From Desulfitobacterium dichloroeliminans LMG P-21439 (GTDB lineage Bacteria > Bacillota > Desulfitobacteriia > Desulfitobacteriales > Desulfitobacteriaceae), in NCBI RefSeq assembly GCF_000243135.2, contig NC_019903.1:3262001-3326000 (forward strand): DNA of 64,000 bases. The letters run 5' to 3'. Below the pieces are notes generated by a model. It had not been told where the DNA came from. It worked only from the letters and a program-made list of their open reading frames with translations, and searched no databases. The translations under genes were made by a program, and so were the position numbers. Positions 12,605 to 24,645 of this stretch are shown here, in pieces (the stretch's first letter is position 1; every line of letters starts with the position of its first letter).

Positions 12605-14512
12605 CTAGAGGTCAAAATCCTTCTCGATTAGCTGGTCATAATACAGCCGTGTTGGGCTATAGTCTTGGGTCGCATTCCCCTTTATAGATAAGGACGTAAG
12701 GCGAGTCAAATCTCTGATGGGGGAAAAGTCTTTAATTTTATTAAGGCTGATATCTAGTTGGGTTAGGCTCTTCAGACTGGTTAATGAGCTGATTAGATCT
12801 AGATCATTATTCATAAGGTCTAGTGATTTGAGGTTGGTAAGCCTTGAAATCTGAGATAGATTTGTACTCTTCAGGAAATTGTTGCTCATATCTAGAGTTT
12901 GCAGATTCGTGAAGGAATCCAGACCGGTAAGATCGCGTATTCCATAACCCTTCAGATCTAGGCTAGTGATTTCTAACACTTCACTTAGGTACACGGGCTG
13001 CGCGGAAGATTGCTTGCCTAGAGAAAACTTAACTGCCCATTCAAAGCTACTATCTTTAAATTCGATGGCTTTATCAACTGAGACTTTTAAACTCAAGTTA
13101 GTAGTTTGATTTGTACCTTCTACAACACCTTGAAAAGTATAGGTGCCTATTTTATTAAGAATCGTTACGTTTGGTGTGGAACTCCATTTAATAGCCATCT
13201 CCCTCGTGCTATTATCGCTCTTGGTGACGATGACCGTTTCCGGGAGGGTATAGGTACCACCTTGGATGACTTCCGCCTGGAAAGTATCTACACCTGTAAT
13301 TCCTGGCTCTACAGTCAGTGCTAAGCGCATGGTTCCATCGTAGCCATTCACTGTACCTGAATAGTAGTATGTTCCAGCCTTATCCGTGGAAACGTCCGTT
13401 AGATTCCAAGTAACCGGAACCTGAGCCAAGTTTCCTTTACTGGTTTTTGCTGCAATTGACACGGGCAACGCATAACTCTGATTTTCCAGCACTTTTACAT
13501 CAATATCTTCTACTTCTGTTATAGTTGGAGTCAGATTCGCTAAGCGAGTCACGGTAGTAGATGAGATAATTCTCTCTCCGCCGAGAACCATGATTTGGTT
13601 GATTACTTTAGTAGAAAAATAGCTTTGAACCGCTGAAGTAATCTCGTTACCCTTCAGTAAAACCACAGGATTGTAATCCTGCTGCGCAAGCGCGGCCGCT
13701 GCTAAGGCATCAGGATAAGTCTGCCCGGTAGCTAAAAAAGCCTTCTCCGTTCTGATATTTACTTCAAAATACTTAAGTAGGGCGCTATTCCGAACGTAAG
13801 CATCTACACCTTCGATATTCTCGGCCCCTGTGAACTGGCTCCGAATGTTCTGTGGTATATCCGCTTTGCTTCCGACGATAATTACTCTGCCTAATTTAGC
13901 TTTACTAAAATAGGCCTTTTGGCTCTTGGTGAAATCATCTGCAGGCACCGGAACAATGGGCATTCCTTCGGCTGCAGCGATCGGCGCTGCAGATAAGGCA
14001 TCAGCAAAGCTGAAGCCCGGTACAAAGAATACTCCTTTGCTCAATCCTACAGATCGGGCAACTGCCATTGCTGTTTCATAGCGATCTTTACCCGCTAAAC
14101 GCGAACTGGAGATTCCATTCGCTGTGAGTTGACTATCTACGCTGTTAGGGATCACTCCAGTACCGCCGACGATATAAGCCTTTTTGGGATTCAAGCGTTT
14201 TAGCTCAGTGAGGGCTTCCGGACTTAATCCCTTCAAGCTAACCAACAAGATAGGAGCATCATATTTACCTGCTAAGGGTGCTGCACTTAAAGCATCCGGG
14301 TAATTCTCCCCTGTCGTCAGAATGACTTCTGCTGCCCCTTCCGGCCAGCCACTTTGACTAATGGCTATCGCTGTAAGATAACGATCAGCACCCGCTAGCC
14401 GTGAAGTAGTCGTTGAGGCTAATACGCTTTGTGATAAGGTTAATATAAATATACTTATGCTTATGCTTACTAACATGAAAGCAGGCAAAGAAGTATGTTT
14501 CTTCCAATTCAT
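12605..14512 (-). CDS. Cell-wall surface protein with CWB2 repeats, Ig-like domains and leucine-rich repeats
   Basis: 635 residues. A signal peptide (to about residue 33) is followed by three CWB2 repeats (about 35-330; RLAGADRYLTAIAISQ, YPDALSAAPLAG, AYIVGGTGVI). Two bacterial Ig-like domains follow (about 340-490; VPVTWNLTDVSTDKAGTYYY and MAIKWSSTPNV). About four 22-residue leucine-rich repeats end the protein (520-630; LTGLDSFTNLQTLDMSNNFL, TNLKSLDLMNNDL). The LRR face suggests a protein- or host/substrate-binding role. AAGGAGG lies upstream; TTG 14515 and ATG 14512 are both possible starts, and ATG is given. It starts 15 bases after the O-antigen-ligase-like gene. Confidence 0.9.
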   Translation of the reverse strand: MNWKKHTSLPAFMLVSISISIFILTLSQSVLASTTTSRLAGADRYLTAIAISQSGWPEGAAEVILTTGENYPDALSAAPLAGKYDAPILLVSLKGLSPEALTELKRLNPKKAYIVGGTGVIPNSVDSQLTANGISSSRLAGKDRYETAMAVARSVGLSKGVFFVPGFSFADALSAAPIAAAEGMPIVPVPADDFTKSQKAYFSKAKLGRVIIVGSKADIPQNIRSQFTGAENIEGVDAYVRNSALLKYFEVNIRTEKAFLATGQTYPDALAAAALAQQDYNPVVLLKGNEITSAVQSYFSTKVINQIMVLGGERIISSTTVTRLANLTPTITEVEDIDVKVLENQSYALPVSIAAKTSKGNLAQVPVTWNLTDVSTDKAGTYYYSGTVNGYDGTMRLALTVEPGITGVDTFQAEVIQGGTYTLPETVIVTKSDNSTREMAIKWSSTPNVTILNKIGTYTFQGVVEGTNQTTNLSLKVSVDKAIEFKDSSFEWAVKFSLGKQSSAQPVYLSEVLEITSLDLKGYGIRDLTGLDSFTNLQTLDMSNNFLKSTNLSQISRLTNLKSLDLMNNDLDLISSLTSLKSLTQLDISLNKIKDFSPIRDLTRLTSLSIKGNATQDYSPTRLYYDQLIEKDFDL

Positions 14513-14529
14513 CAATTTGACTATCCTCC

Positions 14530-16362
14530 TTAACTTTTCAGTTTAGCTGTCCTTTTATTAAGCATATGATTAATGCTTACTCCTAGTCCTAGTAAACACC
14601 AAAAGACTGGAGCCACGGAAACGACACTATCATTAAATACTGCCGCTCCCAGATAGCCTATAATAGCGACAAAGACCCCTACTCCTGCCTGGGATAGAAA
14701 ATCCTCAAAGGGGTTGGACACGTAGAGTCTGAAACTCTTCACGAGGTAGAAACCAACGAGAAAAAGAAATGCAAGTAAGGAAACAACTCCAGTATTGATG
14801 GCAATTTGCAGATATTGATTATGAGGCTTGTCAACTAGCTGCCACATATCTCCGTAATAAGCATACATCTTCCCAAAGATATCATGCTGTGGAAAGGCAA
14901 TAGCAAAGGTATCCGGCCCATAACCCAAGATGATAGTGTTTTTTAGAAGCGGCAGTGATCTAGACCAAATATATCCACGTGAGGAGCCAAGCCGTTCATT
15001 ACCTTCAAAGCCCCAAGCTTCCACTGGCTCTAAGCTGACCTCATTACCTTTATTATTAATCAATGTTATGCGATCGGGATCAAGGTCGAAAATAAGGCTT
15101 ATCGATCCTTTATCTATTCTAAGGATAACATTCTTACCTGTATCTCCATAAATCAAGCTATAATCTTGGTATGCTTGATTTTCCAAGGTTATCTTTCCAC
15201 TATTCATGTCATAGTTTGATTCTATGGCTTTATTGTTGCCATCTGTGAACGTAATCTCATCACTCATAAAAATAAAGTTCAATGTTTCCGTATCGGTAAC
15301 CACTGTACCTTGGGTGCCATTTACAATGACATCTTTCAGGGGGATGCTTTCTCTAGCTGGAGCTACATTTTCAGATAATCCCATCAAAACTTTCACATCT
15401 GTGAATAGACTACCTACCCGTGCGCTTACAAAACCGCCGGATATTTGATTGAGACCAATAAAAATGGCAAGAATTACTAGCAGGCCTGCAGTAAATTGTT
15501 TCCAATATTTACGAATGATTTTATTGATGGCAAACAGAAAGACAAGTAAAGCCAATCCACCCCCGACAATACCTGAGCGAGCATTACTACCTAGCCAGAT
15601 AATTCCCATTAATACTGACATAAAGATCATAAAAGCCTTAAATCGCTTATCCTTCACTAATACTGCCAAGGCGAAACAGAGGGGGAAGAGCATTGCCGTA
15701 TAACTGCCCACATAGTTGTAATGATAAAGTGTGGCATAAACAGTATATTTATCAAACTGAAATGCTAACTGTTCGGCAATATTCATATATTGCTCAGGTA
15801 GAAATAAGCCTTTAGCAAAATCAGTCTTTAGGAGGTCATAACCAATATATTGGAAGAATCCAATTAGTCCTATGGTTAATGCACCAACCATCAGAGAACC
15901 TAGAACAATTTTGACATGCTTCTCATTAGAAACGAGTGTAGTCGTTGTAAGAAACAGTACTAAGTAGGCTACTAAAACATATAAGCCCTCGTAACGATCG
16001 GGAAAGCCAGTTAATGCTACACTTCGATAGTAGGAAAAAAACGTTGAGCCAAGGATACTCAGCAGATATACCCCAGTTGCTATGTATATGGGTTTTAGGT
16101 CCTTATTAATAAGGTTGTTGTCATATTGGAAGAAGCGGGTTACGACCGCAGCTAGAGCCGTTAGTGAGATTATTATTAAAACTATCCCTTTATAATAGGC
16201 GAAGAAATCATAATTCTCTGTTGTACCAAGCCAATAATTGTAACTAGCTCCAGTTAGGGGCATTACCTTGAGATATACGATTAATGGCAGAATAGTAACA
16301 ACGAATATAAGCGGTATGAGATAGTACCATTCTGCATAACTTACACGTTCCCTTGCTTTCAC
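14530..16362 (-). CDS. O-antigen ligase / Wzy_C family membrane glycosyltransferase
   Basis: 610 residues with roughly a dozen hydrophobic segments. The core SNARSGIVGGGLALLVFL and the later GYGPDTFAIAFPQHD and DKPHNQYLQIAINTGVVSLLAFLF are hallmarks of the Wzy_C/WaaL/PglL superfamily. A large extracytoplasmic insert (about residues 300-460) is richer in polar beta-strand sequence than usual. The start is GTG 16362 behind AAGGAGGAAAA. It is the first gene of an operon with two CWB2 surface proteins and two TolC-like proteins. It may therefore transfer lipid-linked glycan to one of those proteins or to the wall; this is inference from context. Confidence 0.82.
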   Translation of the reverse strand: MKARERVSYAEWYYLIPLIFVVTILPLIVYLKVMPLTGASYNYWLGTTENYDFFAYYKGIVLIIISLTALAAVVTRFFQYDNNLINKDLKPIYIATGVYLLSILGSTFFSYYRSVALTGFPDRYEGLYVLVAYLVLFLTTTTLVSNEKHVKIVLGSLMVGALTIGLIGFFQYIGYDLLKTDFAKGLFLPEQYMNIAEQLAFQFDKYTVYATLYHYNYVGSYTAMLFPLCFALAVLVKDKRFKAFMIFMSVLMGIIWLGSNARSGIVGGGLALLVFLFAINKIIRKYWKQFTAGLLVILAIFIGLNQISGGFVSARVGSLFTDVKVLMGLSENVAPARESIPLKDVIVNGTQGTVVTDTETLNFIFMSDEITFTDGNNKAIESNYDMNSGKITLENQAYQDYSLIYGDTGKNVILRIDKGSISLIFDLDPDRITLINNKGNEVSLEPVEAWGFEGNERLGSSRGYIWSRSLPLLKNTIILGYGPDTFAIAFPQHDIFGKMYAYYGDMWQLVDKPHNQYLQIAINTGVVSLLAFLFLVGFYLVKSFRLYVSNPFEDFLSQAGVGVFVAIIGYLGAAVFNDSVVSVAPVFWCLLGLGVSINHMLNKRTAKLKS

Positions 16363-16520
16363 GCTTTTCCTCCTTAATTCCGCAGATTCATCCTTTCTTT
16401 CTGTTATATTATATCAGAGAAGACAAGCTAAATATACTTTAAACTTCTTTTACTATTTCCTGCAAATGTTAGGGCTATGCCGCTTGTCCGATAGTCTTAA
16501 TCAGTAATTCGTTCTTACAG

Positions 16521-16572
16521 AAAAGGGATCGCTGCTTAATGGATTTTGGTCCATCTTGCAACGATCCCTTTA
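16521..16572 (-). terminator. Terminator after the S-layer gene
   Basis: A ten-base outer stem (AAAGGGATCG at 16522-16531 with CGATCCCTTT at 16562-16571) encloses an inner ATGGA/TCCAT hairpin. On the minus strand it is followed by TTTTCTG. It lies about 70 bases after the stop of the S-layer gene and is the only strong hairpin before the next gene. Confidence 0.6.
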
Positions 16573-16640
16573 TGTGTTGGCTCAGCACCTAGTTGTCACC
16601 AAGCAAAGAGCTATACAGAATTCAGTTGGAATCCAATGAC

Positions 16641-19600
16641 TTAAGGTACGATCTTAATTTGGACGGTCTTAACGAATCCGCCAACAACTGCACTGATCTT
16701 AGCAGTTCCAGCATTCAGAGTACCACCAATTTTGCCATCAGCATCAACAGTCATTCCAGTTGTACCAGCATCGACCAATACGATCCGGTCAAATGCCATA
16801 CCCTTCTTACCGTATTGATCTACAGCATAGAAGTATACTTCGGAAGCTGTTGCAGTTCCAGTGGTATCGTACTTAGTGAGGTAGTTGCCAGCAACTAAGC
16901 CATTAGCAACAAGAGATCCAGCTTTGACAGTCAGGGTACCACTAGCGTAAGAAACACCAGCGAAAGAAGTGTCATAAGCGAATTCAATAGACTTAGCTAC
17001 AGGGCTCTCTTTAGTGGACTTGATTGCTGTAGTTAGAGCGTGAACAGCATTATCTGCACCAAGAACGGTTACGTTAAGGTTAGCAGTAGCTTCAGTCGTA
17101 GTATCTGGTAATTTGTTGGCAAGAACTTTGACACTCTTATAGTTGCCACCAGATGCTCCAGCAGATACTACGAAGCGAGAGGAATCAACGGAAGCGCCAA
17201 GTACCGGAGTACCTCTTAAGACAACTTTTGCTCCGGAGGTAGTAGTACCATAGACTTTAGGATTGGCAGTATATGCTTTTTCTTGATCTGTGAGCGCAGA
17301 TCCATCCACATTTACTGTGTAGAGGGCGCTGCTTACTGCATCGATAGTGTAACCTTTAATATCTTTGTCTTGAAGTACGGTGAAGGTTTGAGCTTTAGAA
17401 TCGATCACTACATCATCAGTTGTAGCAACTGTGCCAGCTGTGTCAATCAGATCAAAACGTACGGTTGCAGTTCCAGCAGCAAGCGCATTAACTGTGATTG
17501 CAGTTTTACCTGATGTTGCCGCACCTGTAGCAGTGATGACACTTGTTGCGTCAGAATAAGCCGTAACTTTGTATGGTTGTGCTTTATCAGCTGTAGTCAT
17601 ATCAATGACTCGGCCATATTGGTCTTTGACTTCAAAGCCACCTGCATCATATCCAAAGTCGATGGTTTGGATTGCGCCTGGAGTTGTTGCAGAAGATGCT
17701 TGCATCAAGCTCTTCAGAACTGTGGAATCCAGACTCAAAGCATCTGCTTTAACAGGTTTCTGAATGTTAATGGTAAGGCTACTGAAGCTACCAGTTTTGG
17801 TAACTGCAGAGATAATTGTCGGAATAGTACTTGTGCTGTTGTTTGTTACTGGGTCATTCTTGATTGAAGCGGTTCCGTCAAGATTTTTAACCCAATACGC
17901 GCCAGTGAGTTTTACAATTTGCTCACCAACAATATCACTTCCTACTAAGTCGGTCCATTTGGTAAGCTGTTTTCCGTTTTGATCGTAAGCAGCAAATGGA
18001 ATTACTTTTGATTCTGTAGAAGCAATTGCATCCGCAGGTGCAAACAAGGTAATTTTATCAACTTCAGCTTGTTTCTTCAGGGTTGTGCTCAGTTGAGAAG
18101 TTTTTCCGGTCCAAGTCATCGCTGTGATAACAACTGGCATATCAAGTGTAATCGAAGCAGAAGTAGTTGTTACTTTGATTAAACCTTTGGAGGAATCTTT
18201 AGGATCTTGAACAAGCTCAGCCTTTACATATGGGCTAGAGGTTGTCAGTAGATCTCCAGTTTGGAGAATCAAGCCTTGTTTCAAGAGGGTATAGCTGTTT
18301 GTAAGATTACCGCTGATGTCTTTAGCAGTATAGTCTACATAGAATACATCAGTAGTGCTTCCAGCAACTAGCTCTTTTCCGTCAGCGTTGGTCAACTTTG
18401 TGAGTTGAATATCGCTTAGGGTTCCAATTTGTGAGGTAGCTGCCAAAGTAGCACTTGTGGAAACTCCAGAAGACATGTCGTTAGCGGTGATCACAATTCC
18501 ACCTGTGAAGGTCAGGAGGTTCAGGCCAGTAGTAGGAGTAATTGTCAGTAATCCTTTTCTTCCGGTTACATCACCTACTCCAGATTGGAACTGAACATTG
18601 TTTGCCAAAGCAGCATTGGTAATATCAATACCGTACTGGTCAACGATTTTGTAGGTTGCATAACCTGTTTGAGTTGTAATACCAGCACTTGAGGTGTTGA
18701 CAACACCTAGTTTGGTGGAGGTAATTTCAATCTTAGCAACTTTTTGTTCTGTTACTTTAACTTCACTGGTTCCTAAGCTAGTTGCGTCATTTTTCACAGC
18801 AACAGTATAGGTTCCTGTTACAAAATTAGAAGATTTAGCTAAAGTAGCTTCTGTTTTAGCTTCATTCCAAGAAACCGATACGGTTACAGGAGCAGTAGCT
18901 TGTTTCACTTCGAAGGTAACCTTAGCAGTATCAGCAGGTGCCTTACTAAACTTAACTTTGAAAGTGCTAGCACTAGCTGCAGTCACGCTTTCAACTTTGA
19001 ATTCTCCAGTGGAAGGAGCACCATTCTTAACAGCATCAAGAGCTGCATTGCTAACAACAGCTGCGCCACCAAGAGCAACGATAACGCTGTCATCAGCTAA
19101 ATCAGCAGACACATCAGCTTTAACGGTTTTTCCGTCAGTTAAGATGATTGGGGAGTTGGTTTGAGCAGCAAGAACAGATCCTACGAGAGCATCTGCCAGA
19201 GTAGCTCCATTACCAACATAGACTTTGCCGAATTCGAAATCAAGAGCTTCGATTACAGCAGCGTTAGTTGCGTAACGATCAGCACCGTAGAGACGGTCAG
19301 CGCCAGTGATGTTCTTAACGAGTGTAGGTCCACCGATGATGTAATCGGCTTCAGTACCAGCAGGTACGGAACCATCACGGTCAGCAACAACGATAGCATA
19401 GTTGTTAGCAGCAGCGTAAGAAGCTACGGACATAGCATCAGCAACGCCGTTATAACCAACAACAATGTTTCCTGCAGGAGCAGTTAATTTTGCGTTGATT
19501 TTAGCAGCAGTTTCTACACGGCTAGCGCCTTGGATAGCTTCAACATTGAAGCCAGCAGCTTTTAGCTCGTCAACTACAGCTTGGCTAGCAGCAGCACCGA

Positions 19601-19931
19601 CAACGATAACATCTTTCACGCCAAGGTCTTTGAGTGAATCAACAACCTTATTGTTCATGTCTGCTTTGTCAGTTAGATAAATAGGAGCATCTTCTTGAGC
19701 AGCTAAGGGAGCTGCAGCAAGAGCATCAACGAGGTTAGCGGGGTTACCAGCTGCAACAACAGCTGTGTCTGCAGAAGCATATGCTTTTTCTGCGATTGCA
19801 ATCGAGGTTTCGTATCTGTCGGCACCTGCTAAGCGTTCAGTCGTAGTAGCTGCGAAGACGCTTGCTGGAGCCATAGACAGTACCATACCGGCGATAGCTA
19901 AGGAGGCTAAAGCCTTTTTTGTCTTTTTCAT
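16641..19931 (-). CDS. Probable major S-layer protein with three N-terminal CWB2 repeats
   Basis: 1096 residues. The signal peptide KKTKKALASLAIAGMVLSMAPASVFA is followed by three CWB2 repeats (about 28-310; RLAGADRYETSIAIAEKAY, LVDALAAAPLAAQ, VIVVGAAAS). About 780 residues of Ser/Thr/Ala/Val-rich beta-strand sequence complete it. Cysteine appears absent and tryptophan is rare, as in S-layer proteins. Codon choice looks more uniform than in its neighbours (GCA/GTT/ACT rich), consistent with very high expression. The longer frame from 19952 is discarded because GAGGAGAAA precedes ATG 19931. It has its own long leader and terminator and so is monocistronic. Export would be by the general secretory route, with anchoring by CWB2 to wall polymer. 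That it is the main array-forming protein is inference from size, composition and leader. Confidence 0.85.
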   Translation of the reverse strand: MKKTKKALASLAIAGMVLSMAPASVFAATTTERLAGADRYETSIAIAEKAYASADTAVVAAGNPANLVDALAAAPLAAQEDAPIYLTDKADMNNKVVDSLKDLGVKDVIVVGAAASQAVVDELKAAGFNVEAIQGASRVETAAKINAKLTAPAGNIVVGYNGVADAMSVASYAAANNYAIVVADRDGSVPAGTEADYIIGGPTLVKNITGADRLYGADRYATNAAVIEALDFEFGKVYVGNGATLADALVGSVLAAQTNSPIILTDGKTVKADVSADLADDSVIVALGGAAVVSNAALDAVKNGAPSTGEFKVESVTAASASTFKVKFSKAPADTAKVTFEVKQATAPVTVSVSWNEAKTEATLAKSSNFVTGTYTVAVKNDATSLGTSEVKVTEQKVAKIEITSTKLGVVNTSSAGITTQTGYATYKIVDQYGIDITNAALANNVQFQSGVGDVTGRKGLLTITPTTGLNLLTFTGGIVITANDMSSGVSTSATLAATSQIGTLSDIQLTKLTNADGKELVAGSTTDVFYVDYTAKDISGNLTNSYTLLKQGLILQTGDLLTTSSPYVKAELVQDPKDSSKGLIKVTTTSASITLDMPVVITAMTWTGKTSQLSTTLKKQAEVDKITLFAPADAIASTESKVIPFAAYDQNGKQLTKWTDLVGSDIVGEQIVKLTGAYWVKNLDGTASIKNDPVTNNSTSTIPTIISAVTKTGSFSSLTINIQKPVKADALSLDSTVLKSLMQASSATTPGAIQTIDFGYDAGGFEVKDQYGRVIDMTTADKAQPYKVTAYSDATSVITATGAATSGKTAITVNALAAGTATVRFDLIDTAGTVATTDDVVIDSKAQTFTVLQDKDIKGYTIDAVSSALYTVNVDGSALTDQEKAYTANPKVYGTTTSGAKVVLRGTPVLGASVDSSRFVVSAGASGGNYKSVKVLANKLPDTTTEATANLNVTVLGADNAVHALTTAIKSTKESPVAKSIEFAYDTSFAGVSYASGTLTVKAGSLVANGLVAGNYLTKYDTTGTATASEVYFYAVDQYGKKGMAFDRIVLVDAGTTGMTVDADGKIGGTLNAGTAKISAVVGGFVKTVQIKIVP

Positions 19932-20091
19932 GTAGTGAATTTCTCCTCTCATTTACGTGGTAACGTTTTTGTGTCTTCCGAAGTCGCGGCCACATTGTGT
20001 TTTTCTTAATTAAGAAAGTAACCTATGTACCGTACCTCTCACCTGCGATGATCAGTGGTCGTCACTCACCCCCTTAATATAAGCCGCAAAT

Positions 20092-20186
20092 CTTTAGACA
20101 TTGCGCAATATCTAAAGGCATCCCACCCCTTAACGGGGGCGTCCCCCCTAGGAGGCTTACGCCTCTCGGGTGGCTTACCCTTTAGA
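20092..20186 (-). ncRNA. Structured leader of the S-layer gene, riboswitch-like
   Basis: On the minus-strand transcript an 8-bp stem (TCTAAAGG with CCTTTAGA, 20179-20186 with 20111-20118) encloses a 6-bp stem (CCACCC/GGGTGG) and two hairpins: GAGGC-GTAA-GCCTC with a GNRA loop, and GGGGG-ACG-CCCCC. Together they form a three-way junction. The 3' strand of the closing stem can instead pair with a second TCTAAAG at 20092-20098, forming a perfect hairpin over ATTGC/GCAAT. The two states exclude each other. The element lies about 160 bases before the S-layer start. It matches no riboswitch class I know well; the c-di-GMP-I core motifs were looked for and are absent. Confidence 0.5.
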
Positions 20187-20347
20187 CAAAGTTAATGAAG
20201 AAACCCTAAACGGGTTCTACACTCGTATAACTATTCGATGCGGAAAACAATATTCCTGCATTCTCTCGGAAATTTTCGCAAGAAAATATTGGGAGATTCG
20301 AATCCTACGAGTTGCATAGATTAGTTTACCTAATAATCAAGGTTTTT

Positions 20348-20376
20348 TCTATACCTTTTGTAAATTATTTTATTAA
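20348..20376 (-). promoter_or_regulatory. Possible promoter of the S-layer gene
   Basis: In the AT-rich stretch on the minus strand, TTAATA and TATAGA are separated by 17 bases. Each matches the sigma-A consensus at four of six positions. It would give a leader of about 400 bases that contains the structured element. The match is weak and other AT-rich sites are possible. Confidence 0.3.
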
Positions 20377-20421
20377 CTTTTTCTTAATTACCATGCTTTT
20401 GTCCATAAATTCGGGTTTTTT

Positions 20422-22053
20422 CTAATAACCCCGGTAAATTAGAATGCCTCGATAGATCCCTAGAGCTGCTTTTTGTTGGAATTCTGGACTAATGATCAAT
20501 TTCTCTTCTAGAGGGTTTGAAATAAAGCCTAGTTCTACAAGAATGGCCGGCATGGTGGTGTTCTTAATCACATAAAAGTTGGCCGTCTTGACTTTGCGGT
20601 CCTGAAGCTCCACTTGCTTGATCACTTCTTGCTGAACTGCTGTAGCCAGTTTTCTTCCTTCTTCACCTCTGGGATTCCCCGCGGAAATATAAGTCGTCAC
20701 TCCCCCTGCTTCTGGATTGGAAAAAGCATCGTTGTGTATAGAGACGTAAACATCGGCACGAATCTGATTCGCAATTTTGACCCGAGTTTGTAAATCTTTT
20801 AACTCTACATAACTTGAGCCGGAGGGCGGGACATCCCCGGTACGGGTCATCACAACTTTGGCTCCCGCTTGGCGGAGTAGATTCGTTAGATTTAACCCCA
20901 CCGGGAGGGTTGAGTTCTTCTCATAGGAGCCACTGGGCCCTACCGCTCCCACATCCTTTCCCCCATGCCCCGGGTCCACCACCACGGTGAGGCCGGCTAA
21001 GAGATAGGGCGGCTGAAGGGTTCCGGCGACGATCCCTCTGACACGGTCGGAGAGTATAACTTCCCCACCGATCATCGTAACCAAGAGCTGATTCTCTGTG
21101 GCATTGCCCATGGCGGAATAAGTGATGGCCGGTAGTCCGGCGTGACTGGACATAAACAGGTGGGCATTCTGCTTGACGGCTAAGGCACCGGTGACTAAAG
21201 CATCAGGGAAATTCTCGCCTGTGACGAGAAAAGCCCGTTGCTCCCCAGAAGCGTCAGCCGGGTCCGTCCCGAACTCTTCTTGAGTAAATAAAAAGGCTTG
21301 GGCAGCGGTCGCATAGCGGTCTTTGCCGCTCAGTCGCGTCATTCCGGTTAATCCTTCTACTATAGTAGGGGCAATGACTCCCTCTCCTCCGACCACGATG
21401 GTCCGGGTCACGGCTTCAGCCTCTTCATTGAGCTGGTAAGCGCCGAACCCTTCTAGCCTATGCCGAGTGATTGTGGGTAGTTCTTGGGCTTTCGTGAGCA
21501 GGATGGGGGTCTCGGTGATACCGGCATAGGGTCCGATAGCTAGGGCATCGGGGAAATTCTCGCCACTGGTGAGGACCACTTGGCCATTACCTCCTAAGTG
21601 ATCGGCCACCAGTGCGGCGGTCTCATAGCGGTCCGCTCCACCGATGCGTTCCCAAGTCAGTCCGGCAGTTTCTAGAGCCTCGCTAATCGGTGTTCCCATC
21701 ACCCCGGCCCCTCCCAGTAGGATTACATGACTGGCCTTGAGCCGTTGAATTTCCACTAAAACTTCTTGGTCCAAACCCTTCGAGCCAGTCAGGAGAATGG
21801 GTGCATCATAGCGCTTGGAAAGGGGGACCGAGACCAAGGAATCTGGGAAAGCATCCCCGCGGGCCAGGAGAACGGTCTGAGCTTCGCTCCAGCCTTCTTG
21901 GGAAATCATTATTGCTGTCTCAATGCGCGTTGCTCCGTAGAGGCGATCGACTTCTGCTGTCAGGGGAGCTGCTCCAACCGGTGCTTGACCTAATAGCCAA
22001 AGACTAAAGGAAGCGGCGAGGAGAGCGCTCCATCTTTTCGGTGGTAACCACAC
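20422..22053 (-). CDS. N-acetylmuramoyl-L-alanine amidase with three CWB2 repeats
   Basis: 543 residues from GTG 22053. A signal peptide (WLPPKRWSALLAASFSLWLLG...VGAA) is followed by three CWB2 repeats (about 35-330). A C-terminal Amidase_3 domain (about 360-543) has the zinc ligands DPGHGGKD, the glutamate of YEKNSTLP and the histidine of VSIHNDA, plus the catalytic glutamate in LVELGFISN. It cleaves the peptide-glycan amide bond in peptidoglycan and should act in wall turnover or separation. The open frame continues 63 codons upstream through a nine-base tandem repeat, but an AAGGAGGG site six bases before GTG 22053 and the immediate signal peptide argue for this start. Confidence 0.9.
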   Translation of the reverse strand: MWLPPKRWSALLAASFSLWLLGQAPVGAAPLTAEVDRLYGATRIETAIMISQEGWSEAQTVLLARGDAFPDSLVSVPLSKRYDAPILLTGSKGLDQEVLVEIQRLKASHVILLGGAGVMGTPISEALETAGLTWERIGGADRYETAALVADHLGGNGQVVLTSGENFPDALAIGPYAGITETPILLTKAQELPTITRHRLEGFGAYQLNEEAEAVTRTIVVGGEGVIAPTIVEGLTGMTRLSGKDRYATAAQAFLFTQEEFGTDPADASGEQRAFLVTGENFPDALVTGALAVKQNAHLFMSSHAGLPAITYSAMGNATENQLLVTMIGGEVILSDRVRGIVAGTLQPPYLLAGLTVVVDPGHGGKDVGAVGPSGSYEKNSTLPVGLNLTNLLRQAGAKVVMTRTGDVPPSGSSYVELKDLQTRVKIANQIRADVYVSIHNDAFSNPEAGGVTTYISAGNPRGEEGRKLATAVQQEVIKQVELQDRKVKTANFYVIKNTTMPAILVELGFISNPLEEKLIISPEFQQKAALGIYRGILIYRGY

Positions 22054-22121
22054 GGAAAACCCTCCTTGATCATTATTAACCATAGTTACAGTTGGTGGTT
22101 TAGATAACACCTGGTTCATTA

Positions 22122-22183
22122 GGTACTTTTGGTACTTTTGGTACTTTTGGTACTTTTGGTACTTTTGGTACTTTTGGTACTTT
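22122..22183. repeat. Nine-base tandem repeat, about seven copies
   Basis: The unit GGTACTTTT is repeated six full times plus eight bases without a mismatch. It lies about 70 bases before the chosen start of the CWB2 amidase, in its leader. Read in the amidase frame it would encode repeated Tyr-Gln-Lys and introduces no stop. Perfect short tandem repeats of this kind change copy number by slippage. Confidence 0.95.
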
Positions 22184-22242
22184 GCATGTTTCGACGAGAG
22201 ATTACTGAATCCTTTTGGGAATCTTGACCATCTACTAGGCAA

Positions 22243-22584
22243 GTAGTAGTCATGTCAGCCTCTTTGCGGTTGCTGAGAACTGCAAGTCCTTATATAGTAA
22301 TAGACTAACTAGGGTCCACTTTTCTTCCTCTTAGATATGTTAAAAATTTATTAACTCTTGCTCTTCCTATTTTTTTGTAAAGGGATTCTTTGCTTTTTAG
22401 CGAAGTATTCGCAGAGACGACAGAGAACTGTCCGTTAAATGTAGATTCGTGTCAGATTTCATTGACTGTAGTAGTCTAAAATCAAGGGTGCTTCCTAGTT
22501 ATGTTCTTATGTAAAGTACGTATGTAGGGGCGACCTAAGTGTCGGTCATCCTAGTATTGAAGTGTAACGAAAAAGGAGAGAAAA
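22243..22584. other. Divergent intergenic region between amidase and GH18 genes
   Basis: About 340 bases carrying the start signals of two divergent CWB2 hydrolase genes. It is AT-rich with several sigma-A-like hexamers, but none is convincing. Nothing coding was seen. AAAAAGGAGAG before 22585 is the plus-strand ribosome site. Confidence 0.5.
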
Positions 22585-24645
22585 ATGAAAAGAACTACAA
22601 AAACCGCCGTCGTGGTTTTGACAGCATTCACCCTTTTATTCACAAGCCCAATGATGATGCCTTTGGCACCTCAAGCGGTTCAGGCGGAAACTTCCATAAC
22701 TCAACCTTTGCGCTTAGCGGGGACCTCTCGCTACGATACGGCGATCCAAGTTTCCCAAGGGGGATGGAATTACGCTGAGTCCGTTGTTTTGGCTCGTGGG
22801 GATGATTTCCCCGATGCTTTGGCCGGTGTGGTGCTGACCAAGAGCGTGAATGCTCCCTTGCTATTAACAGAAACTAAACAGCTAACCACTGGAGTATTAG
22901 ATGAGATACAGCGCTTAGGGGCATCGACAGTTTACATCTTAGGGAGCCGGGGGGCTGTCTCTGAAGAAGTGGAAAATGCTCTGATTAATGAAGGATTGCA
23001 AGTGGAGCGTCTCGAAGGGACGGACCGTTATATTACAGCCAGTGAAATCGCTAAGGTTGCTGTGCCCCAGACTGAAAAGGCCTTCCTGGCTTTGGGCACG
23101 GATTTCCCCGATGCTTTAAGCATCTCCTCTTATGCTGCTGCTCAAGGAATTCCTCTACTTTTGACCGAGAAGAAAAAGGTCCCTGAGGTGACATTGGAAA
23201 CCTTGCAAAGCTTAGGAGTCAAAGAAGTGACCCTAATCGGGGGTGAAGGGGTTATTCTTCCCGAGGTAAAAGTTCAGTTGGAAGAATTGGGCTTTGGGGT
23301 GGATCGTTTAGCCGGAACCGATCGCTATGGAACGAATCTGGAAATCCTCAATGGGTTAAGCTTTAATAATGAAGCTATTTATGTCGCTACGGGCACAAAG
23401 TTTCCGGATGCCTTGGCCGGAGCTGCCTTAGCCGCTAAGAACAATAACCCGATTGTTTTGGTCCCGCAAAAGGATCTTAAGGAAGAAAGCCTAGATTATC
23501 TGGGAGCACGCCGAGGGGATGGATCGCACTTTACCCTGCTGGGTGGCTGGGGAGTGATTAGCTACGGTATGGAAAGCATTATTCGCACGGGGAATCTGCA
23601 TCCCAAGATTTCCCTGCAATACTGGGATGGTTATGCCAAATACGAAACCTATCTCAATCAACTCTCGATGATCCCTAATCAAGCTACGGATTATGTGGAC
23701 TATGTCTCCCCCAACTGGCGCTCCTCCATCGGTGCGGATGGAACCTTGAAGCTGGTTTGGGAGGAAGGCTCCAGCAATTATCGTCAGCTCACCAATATGG
23801 CTCATGGCCTAGGGATGAAGGTTCTGCCTCTGATCAATGGTAGCGGCGCCACCATCAATACTCTGCTGAAGAGTCCCGCAGCTCAAGAAAAATTGATTGC
23901 CGAGATTGTGAAATTGCTTAATGATACCCGTTCTGATGGGGTGATCATCGATTTTGAGACACCTTTAGATTATGGTGATGCTAAGGACCCTTATGATGGG
24001 GTGAGAAATGACTTAACTCGCTTTATGGAATCGCTTTACGCCGAGTTAAAGCCCATGAATAAAATTGTAGTAATGACTGTGATGCCGCGGATGTCCTCCA
24101 GTCAATATTGGCTGGATGCCTTCGATTATGAAGCACTCTCTCATACTGTGGATTATATGCATGTCATGACCTACGACCATCATTACCGAACCTCCGCCCC
24201 GGGGGCGATCGCTCCTTATCCATGGATCAAACAGGTTCTTACCTATGTAAAAGATCAAGGGGTGGATATGAGCAAGGTCATGATGGGACTGCCCTACTAC
24301 GGACGGGATTGGGTGGTCACCGGGAAGGATACGAACGGCAATCCCACTTATAATTCCACCGCTTTTGGCTATTCTAAGGCCTTGGAGATTGCGGATGCTT
24401 ATGGTGCGGAGATCACTTACTCCAAGGACAATGATAAAGACCCTGTCGGTACCCCAACCTTTAAGTATACGGACGATAAGGGTGTCGAGCATACGGTGTT
24501 TTTCGATGATTTCACCAGTTGGAATGCCAAGCTGGGGGTCATCAATGAGTTTGGCCTAGCCGGTGTCGGTCCTTGGGCCATGGGCTGGGTGGATGAAGAA
24601 ACTGCTGAAGGTCTCTATCCTCTGCTCAATCAGCATCTACGGTAG
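22585..24645 (+). CDS. CWB2-anchored glycoside hydrolase family 18 protein
   Basis: 686 residues: signal peptide (to about residue 34), three CWB2 repeats (about 38-335; RLAGTSRYDTAIQVSQGGW, FPDALAGVVL, LIGGEGVI), then a GH18 TIM barrel (about 345-686). The barrel's catalytic strand is DGVIIDFETP, with the acid/base glutamate present. YMHVMTYDHHY and GLPYYGRDW follow, and it ends with GVGPWAMGW. The form is closest to YaaH/SleL-type N-acetylglucosaminidases that cut peptidoglycan or cortex glycan. The single FETP glutamate and the lost second aspartate of the DxxDxDxE pattern are worth noting. It is transcribed away from the CWB2 amidase and probably works on the same wall. Confidence 0.88.
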   Translation: MKRTTKTAVVVLTAFTLLFTSPMMMPLAPQAVQAETSITQPLRLAGTSRYDTAIQVSQGGWNYAESVVLARGDDFPDALAGVVLTKSVNAPLLLTETKQLTTGVLDEIQRLGASTVYILGSRGAVSEEVENALINEGLQVERLEGTDRYITASEIAKVAVPQTEKAFLALGTDFPDALSISSYAAAQGIPLLLTEKKKVPEVTLETLQSLGVKEVTLIGGEGVILPEVKVQLEELGFGVDRLAGTDRYGTNLEILNGLSFNNEAIYVATGTKFPDALAGAALAAKNNNPIVLVPQKDLKEESLDYLGARRGDGSHFTLLGGWGVISYGMESIIRTGNLHPKISLQYWDGYAKYETYLNQLSMIPNQATDYVDYVSPNWRSSIGADGTLKLVWEEGSSNYRQLTNMAHGLGMKVLPLINGSGATINTLLKSPAAQEKLIAEIVKLLNDTRSDGVIIDFETPLDYGDAKDPYDGVRNDLTRFMESLYAELKPMNKIVVMTVMPRMSSSQYWLDAFDYEALSHTVDYMHVMTYDHHYRTSAPGAIAPYPWIKQVLTYVKDQGVDMSKVMMGLPYYGRDWVVTGKDTNGNPTYNSTAFGYSKALEIADAYGAEITYSKDNDKDPVGTPTFKYTDDKGVEHTVFFDDFTSWNAKLGVINEFGLAGVGPWAMGWVDEETAEGLYPLLNQHLR

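Follow-up and report, generated by a model that had tools for sequence, protein, structure and literature searches.

What kind of RNA precedes the major surface-layer (S-layer) gene of Desulfitobacterium dichloroeliminans LMG P-21439, and what might it do for the message that carries it? Few proteins of a cell are as abundant as those of the S-layer, and to our knowledge the matching of their supply to growth is poorly known. We analyzed a stretch of 64,000 nucleotides (nt) of this genome (NC_019903.1, positions 3,262,001 to 3,326,000; hereafter the window, in whose numbering coordinates are given). Here an original prediction, made from the letters alone, had placed a riboswitch-like RNA with two mutually exclusive folds in the S-layer leader, at 20186-20092 of the minus strand. 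Sequence comparison suggests, as the best explanation, that this element represents a new family of cis-acting leader RNAs of the order Desulfitobacteriales, located in the 5' untranslated region (UTR) of the major S-layer gene.

All the stems that had been described are present at their positions, on the minus strand as are the other features below. The closing stem P1 is formed by the strand TCTAAAGG (20186-20179) and the strand CCTTTAGA (20118-20111). Inside it P2 (CCACCC at 20173-20168, GGGTGG at 20128-20123), the hairpin P3 (GAGGC-GUAA-GCCUC, 20165-20152) and the hairpin P4 (GGGGG-GACG-CCCCC, 20148-20135, with a near-invariant GGACGC) make up a three-way junction. The 3' strand of P1 doubles as the 5' strand of a further hairpin, P5 (CTTTAGATATTGCGCAATGTCTAAAG, 20092..20117), the alternative to P1; covariation and variant copies both bear on this shared strand. 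As read from the sequence, the arms of P5 are TTTAGATATT-GCGC-AATGTCTAAA (20116-20093), and they can also be written CTTTAGATATT-GCGC-AATGTCTAAAG. The 95-mer has a predicted fold of -44.2 kcal/mol (z = -4.05), and when it was dinucleotide-shuffled 3000 times, three of the shuffles contained an exact 7-nt triple of the form X, reverse complement of X, X.

Covariation among homologous leaders, the first check proposed for the predicted fold, is present and strong in P1, P2 and P3. Our alignment of 75 rows (A3) was fitted to the structure, and separate controls were added for that reason. In A3, 22 of 26 pairs are double-changed, with 238 double-changed cells against 77.7 after shuffling and at most 68 with a slid partner. 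P1 alone has six of its seven pairs changed on both sides against 0.6 when shuffled (0/500 shuffles reach this value), while P2 alone has 6/6, with 79 cells against 25.6. The same holds for all six pairs of P3, the most variable helix, which is almost missing in one genus; its GNRA cap, part of the original prediction, is found in the window copy but is no conserved trait, the loop varying among relatives. P4 is paired in 99% of cells, by GC, AU and GU types. In an alignment-free test, 5' strands were matched against the 3' strand of the same sequence and against 3' strands of distant ones, and the own strand is preferred in 72/73 cases for P2 and 58/68 for P3; P4 and two hairpins described below, P0 and the one that follows the orphan Shine-Dalgarno (SD) sequence, give at most a weak signal. 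In P5, 94.5% of cells are paired (74 sequences), yet the helix is near-invariant, and its covariation is therefore not decisive. In a few cases its U.G pair is replaced, by C-G in copy L102 and by U-A in copy L100, and the single copy L099 has a shared-strand change for which the partner strands in P1 and in P5 both compensate. Compensatory changes were expected in both alternative stems; P1 has them in six of its seven pairs, P5 in these few variant copies only.

How widely is the element distributed? Among 46 genomes of the family, 41 gave a BLAST match to 171 nt at E <= 1, and in 35 of them the match was at 1e-13 or better. A covariance model built from 37 sequences (R1) has matches in 53 of the 74 Desulfitobacteriales genomes, across three families, and no match in the nine genomes that represent the other order of the class. 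Credible matches among 398 genomes sampled across the phylum are confined to the order (0/386 outside it), three outsiders of 25-26 bits having been rejected because they lie in unrelated DNA, two of them beside a purL-like gene. A second model, from 75 sequences (R2), reproduces this distribution with no outsider at 0.001; in these covariance searches E goes down to 1e-32. A degenerate P5 pattern, run against 84,980 species, was found in Desulfosporosinus, Acididesulfobacillus, Paradesulfitobacterium, Dichloromethanomonas, Gracilibacteraceae and further Peptococcaceae/Bacillota genomes; a single match in Confluentibacter is apparently due to chance. That the RNA could not be matched to a known class is borne out by Rfam 15, which has no match in the window at gathering thresholds, only chance-level matches in a permissive scan of the leader and, among 12 diverse members, one match alone, to a signal recognition particle (SRP) RNA elsewhere in L096. 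At that locus (1618-1772, Gracilibacteraceae-type) a large SRP RNA gene immediately precedes the leader and is encoded on the other strand.

The gene that follows the RNA encodes an S-layer-type protein with three CWB2 domains (16641..19931, minus strand; Pfam PF04122, E 8.4e-41). Its start was set at 19931, a conserved position, from the ribosome site and the alignment of relatives; the longest open reading frame begins at 19952 with ATGAGAGGAG, but that stretch is the ribosome site, GAGAGGAG (19943..19950), near-invariant among relatives. Wherever enough contig is left, the RNA is followed by a gene for a secreted protein whose signal peptide begins in a similar way, the distance from the start of the RNA to the gene being about 170-320 nt. 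Three CWB2 domains were found in eight of nine divergent downstream proteins tested, and the ninth (L088) has none within the 512 residues available. The window genome has 52 occurrences of PF04122, distributed by our own count over 17 genes, of which one has the RNA, and so the RNA belongs to this S-layer gene and not to CWB2 genes generally. Within the window a cluster of CWB2 proteins (12605-24645) comprises an amidase, a GH18 protein, an LRR/Big_4 protein and the S-layer protein, and the RNA is found only at the S-layer gene.

The sharing of one strand by P1 and P5 raises the question of how the two folds are balanced. With either helix forced and P2-P4 left free, the energy of the P1 fold minus that of the P5 fold has a median of +0.7 kcal/mol over 71 sequences (5-95% range -2.5 to +2.4). 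For the window element the two folds come to -44.0 versus -44.2 kcal/mol, and in the full leader P1 is favored by about 1.7-2 kcal/mol; since prediction errors are of similar size, such a balance is suggestive only. The mutual exclusion put forward originally holds for the TCTAAA/TTTAGA part of P1 against P5, but not for the P2/P3/P4 junction, which persists in both folds. Folding models and alignment together support a shared-strand alternative that is kept in nearly all relatives and is predicted to lie near energy balance.

Upstream of the element we found a SigH-type promoter, AGGAATA-N11-ATCGAATAG (20231..20257, minus strand; a motif match), a pattern that occurs three times in the 64 kb window against 0.26 expected. 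The SigH consensus is RNAGGAWWW-N11/12-RNNGAATWW, from which the window copy departs at the last base. The promoter recurs at a near-fixed distance in 30 of 32 main copies of the family and in 15 of 20 copies of the other two families, a tally (45/52) that used a slightly relaxed pattern with a chance of 0.0016 per region. Because it recurs just upstream, transcription presumably starts near 20225 and the entire RNA would lie within the transcript. A start downstream of 20092, the case in which the RNA would have to be given up, does not agree with the motif, which places it upstream of the RNA. Near the predicted 5' end lies the P0 hairpin (AACCC-GUUUA-GGGUU, 20202..20216, minus strand); the fold of this 5' region has a median z of -1.8 in 47 leaders, and the third family keeps the hairpin with a different sequence. 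Second S-layer copies have the promoter in just 2 of 21 cases; their upstream DNA is different and the RNA is still there, which indicates that its retention does not depend on the promoter. Those of L036, L037, L041, L046, L047 and L048 (Desulfosporosinus-type), with the leader RNA and without the SigH-type promoter, often lie 7-14 kb from the main copy, on the opposite strand. Several second copies have another upstream stretch in common, TTTAATATGTTAATCTCTATTT. They might reflect S-layer gene switching.

Between the RNA and the gene, about 20 nt after P5, we identified an SD sequence with no gene of its own (AAGGGGGTGA, 20066..20075, minus strand). Such an orphan SD is present in 68 of 73 leaders (AAGGGGGTGA in the window, AAGGAGGTGA elsewhere), at a median of 106 nt before the ATG, and in 61 of the 68 no start codon stands behind it. 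Its mean predicted energy with the anti-SD is -14.5, against -9.1 for the real SD, a gap that is partly by construction because the sites were picked with an SD-like pattern, while their position and conservation are not. The base that faces the U of the anti-SD is nearly always A or G. A pairing of the orphan SD with the 3' strand of P4, noticed by eye, was dropped, given that A and G vary without a matching change in P4 and that L093 and L109 would mismatch; a leader peptide behind the site was likewise rejected, as none is conserved. Many relatives (L012, L038 and others) have a hairpin GGGACG...CGUCC right after the orphan SD, which is not evident in the genus of the window. The modules of the leader can part. 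In L111 (1435-1518, G023) P1-P5 is gone, but the SigH-type promoter remains, as do the orphan SD and the hairpin after it; L045, in reverse, keeps P1-P5 and has no orphan SD. In L100 (404-523, G046) P1, P5 and the orphan SD are kept, another hairpin replaces P3/P4, and a CWB2 gene follows.

By what route could such a leader act? A terminator-like site, and a weak one, was found in one of 73 leaders, and transcription attenuation was rejected on this count; nor does access to the real or the orphan SD differ consistently between the P1 and P5 folds, so that masking of either site by one fold was rejected too. The riboswitch logic of the original prediction stands as far as a conserved, covarying leader RNA with shared-strand folds is concerned, but the usual expression platform, a terminator or a masked SD, was not found. 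The RNA probably governs either the persistence of the costly S-layer message or the efficiency of its translation. A precedent is the stabilizing SD (STAB-SD) of cry3A, an SD-like site in a long 5' UTR that matches 16S rRNA and starts no translation, and at which 30S binding blocks RNase J1 (PMC4113751). We put forward, with a probability of roughly 45%, that the leader might control S-layer mRNA stability by a similar 30S binding, P1/P5 being a bistable element. Stability control is favored because the terminator search gave only that one weak site, the real ribosome site is unmasked in both folds, and the cry3A STAB-SD is typified by just such an SD with no coding sequence of its own. Transcription from the SigH-type promoter would yield a message that opens with P0, followed by the P1-P5 domain. 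This domain would toggle between closure by P1 and capture of the shared strand by P5. Bound to the orphan SD, 30S subunits would, together with the folded 5' region, shield the message from 5'-3' decay, and the P1/P5 exchange would tune the formation of this shield or of a processing step. From the transcription start through 30S binding and stabilization to regulation by the toggle, these are steps that we infer.

Several observations weigh against stabilization of this type. In cry3A the STAB-SD is close to where the stable transcript begins; here some 150 nt separate the orphan SD from the predicted start, and a processing step would be needed; in the full leader of the window it is predicted to be paired, and a few copies (e.g., L045) are without it. 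A stabilizer alone also leaves the strand sharing of P1 and P5 and the near-invariant P4 loop and P5 sequence unexplained, and the evidence is entirely computational. As the main rival we rank a sensing switch, possible though on balance doubtful. Here P2-P4 or P5 would be bound by a metabolite or by a protein, the latter perhaps an RNA-binding regulator or S-layer protein awaiting export, and the resulting shift of the P1/P5 exchange would change S-layer output. Strand sharing in nearly all copies, the near-equal energies, the matched double change of L099 and a conservation of the P4 loop GGACGC and of P5 beyond the needs of pairing would all be expected of it. However, there is a terminator-like site in only 1/73 leaders and neither fold masks the real SD, the junction nucleotides are not conserved as one would expect of a small-molecule pocket, and L100 retains P1/P5 without P4. 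A bolder scenario combines both ideas: in a new sensing RNA class, P2-P4 with its GGACGC loop would bind a factor reporting envelope state or unexported S-layer protein, move the P1/P5 exchange and so set ribosome occupancy of the orphan SD and message lifetime; we deem this unlikely.

Somewhat less likely again is a constitutive stabilizing leader without switching, in which P5 or P1 alone is functional and the other helix incidental. Long structured S-layer leaders and STAB-SD-type leaders are known kinds, and the P1 fold dominates in silico at almost all lengths of the window leader; strict strand sharing in three families together with the energy balance would, however, have to be coincidence. 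The near-invariance of the palindrome CTTTAGATATTGCGCAATGTCTAAAG might also suggest that P5 works as DNA, a 26-bp near-palindrome serving as operator for a dimeric regulator within the leader. This is highly improbable: at the off-palindrome position most copies form a U.G pair as RNA and variant copies C-G or U-A, the symmetry is broken in 20 copies by A or C at one pair, and P1-P3 covary as RNA. We give equally little credence to the idea that the orphan SD is there for ribosome standby or for translating a short leader peptide, with the RNA working by translational coupling, in spite of the strong anti-SD match, since 61/68 leaders lack ATG, GTG or TTG at a usable distance and the few candidates encode unrelated peptides of 5-20 amino acids.

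We rate the element as a new RNA family within a known kind, the structured mRNA leader: order-wide, nearly restricted to S-layer-type genes, and combining a two-fold architecture with an orphan ribosome site. Our search, which covered the literature without most subscription journals, found no publication on this leader and no relevant one on S-layer transcripts of Desulfitobacterium or Desulfosporosinus. Post-transcriptional control of S-layer synthesis becomes directly testable in these culturable, environmental genera. With transcription-attenuating and SD-sequestering riboswitches the RNA has in common two folds with one shared strand and a three-way junction, but neither a terminator (a terminator-like site in 1/73 leaders) nor SD sequestration was found. 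Long stabilizing leaders are found on S-layer genes such as Lactobacillus slpA; the present one is likewise long, structured and on an S-layer gene, a likeness by description alone, and differs in lineage. As in cry3A, the 5' UTR is long and contains an SD-like site that starts no translation, some 100-140 nt ahead of the gene, but here a conserved folded domain with two folds lies upstream, and 30S binding and stabilization are predicted by analogy. If the analogy is true, the STAB-SD mechanism extends to a structural gene that a whole order retains. Nearest among published ideas, compared here by gene context and range, is the SLH motif (Stav et al. 2019; PMC6429828), a structured riboswitch candidate of unknown ligand upstream of S-layer-related genes. 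Its reported occurrences, in Synergistaceae, Clostridia and Negativicutes, precede genes with SLH domains, an association that holds for only about 60% of the motifs (PMC6429828). Both are structured candidate cis-regulatory RNAs before an S-layer-related gene. The present RNA, however, precedes CWB2 (PF04122) genes with no SLH match and is found in one order only, and its degenerate P5 pattern, the part compared, has no match in Synergistota among the 84,980 species. Set against the description of the SLH motif, the Desulfitobacteriales leader RNA differs in gene family and apparent range.
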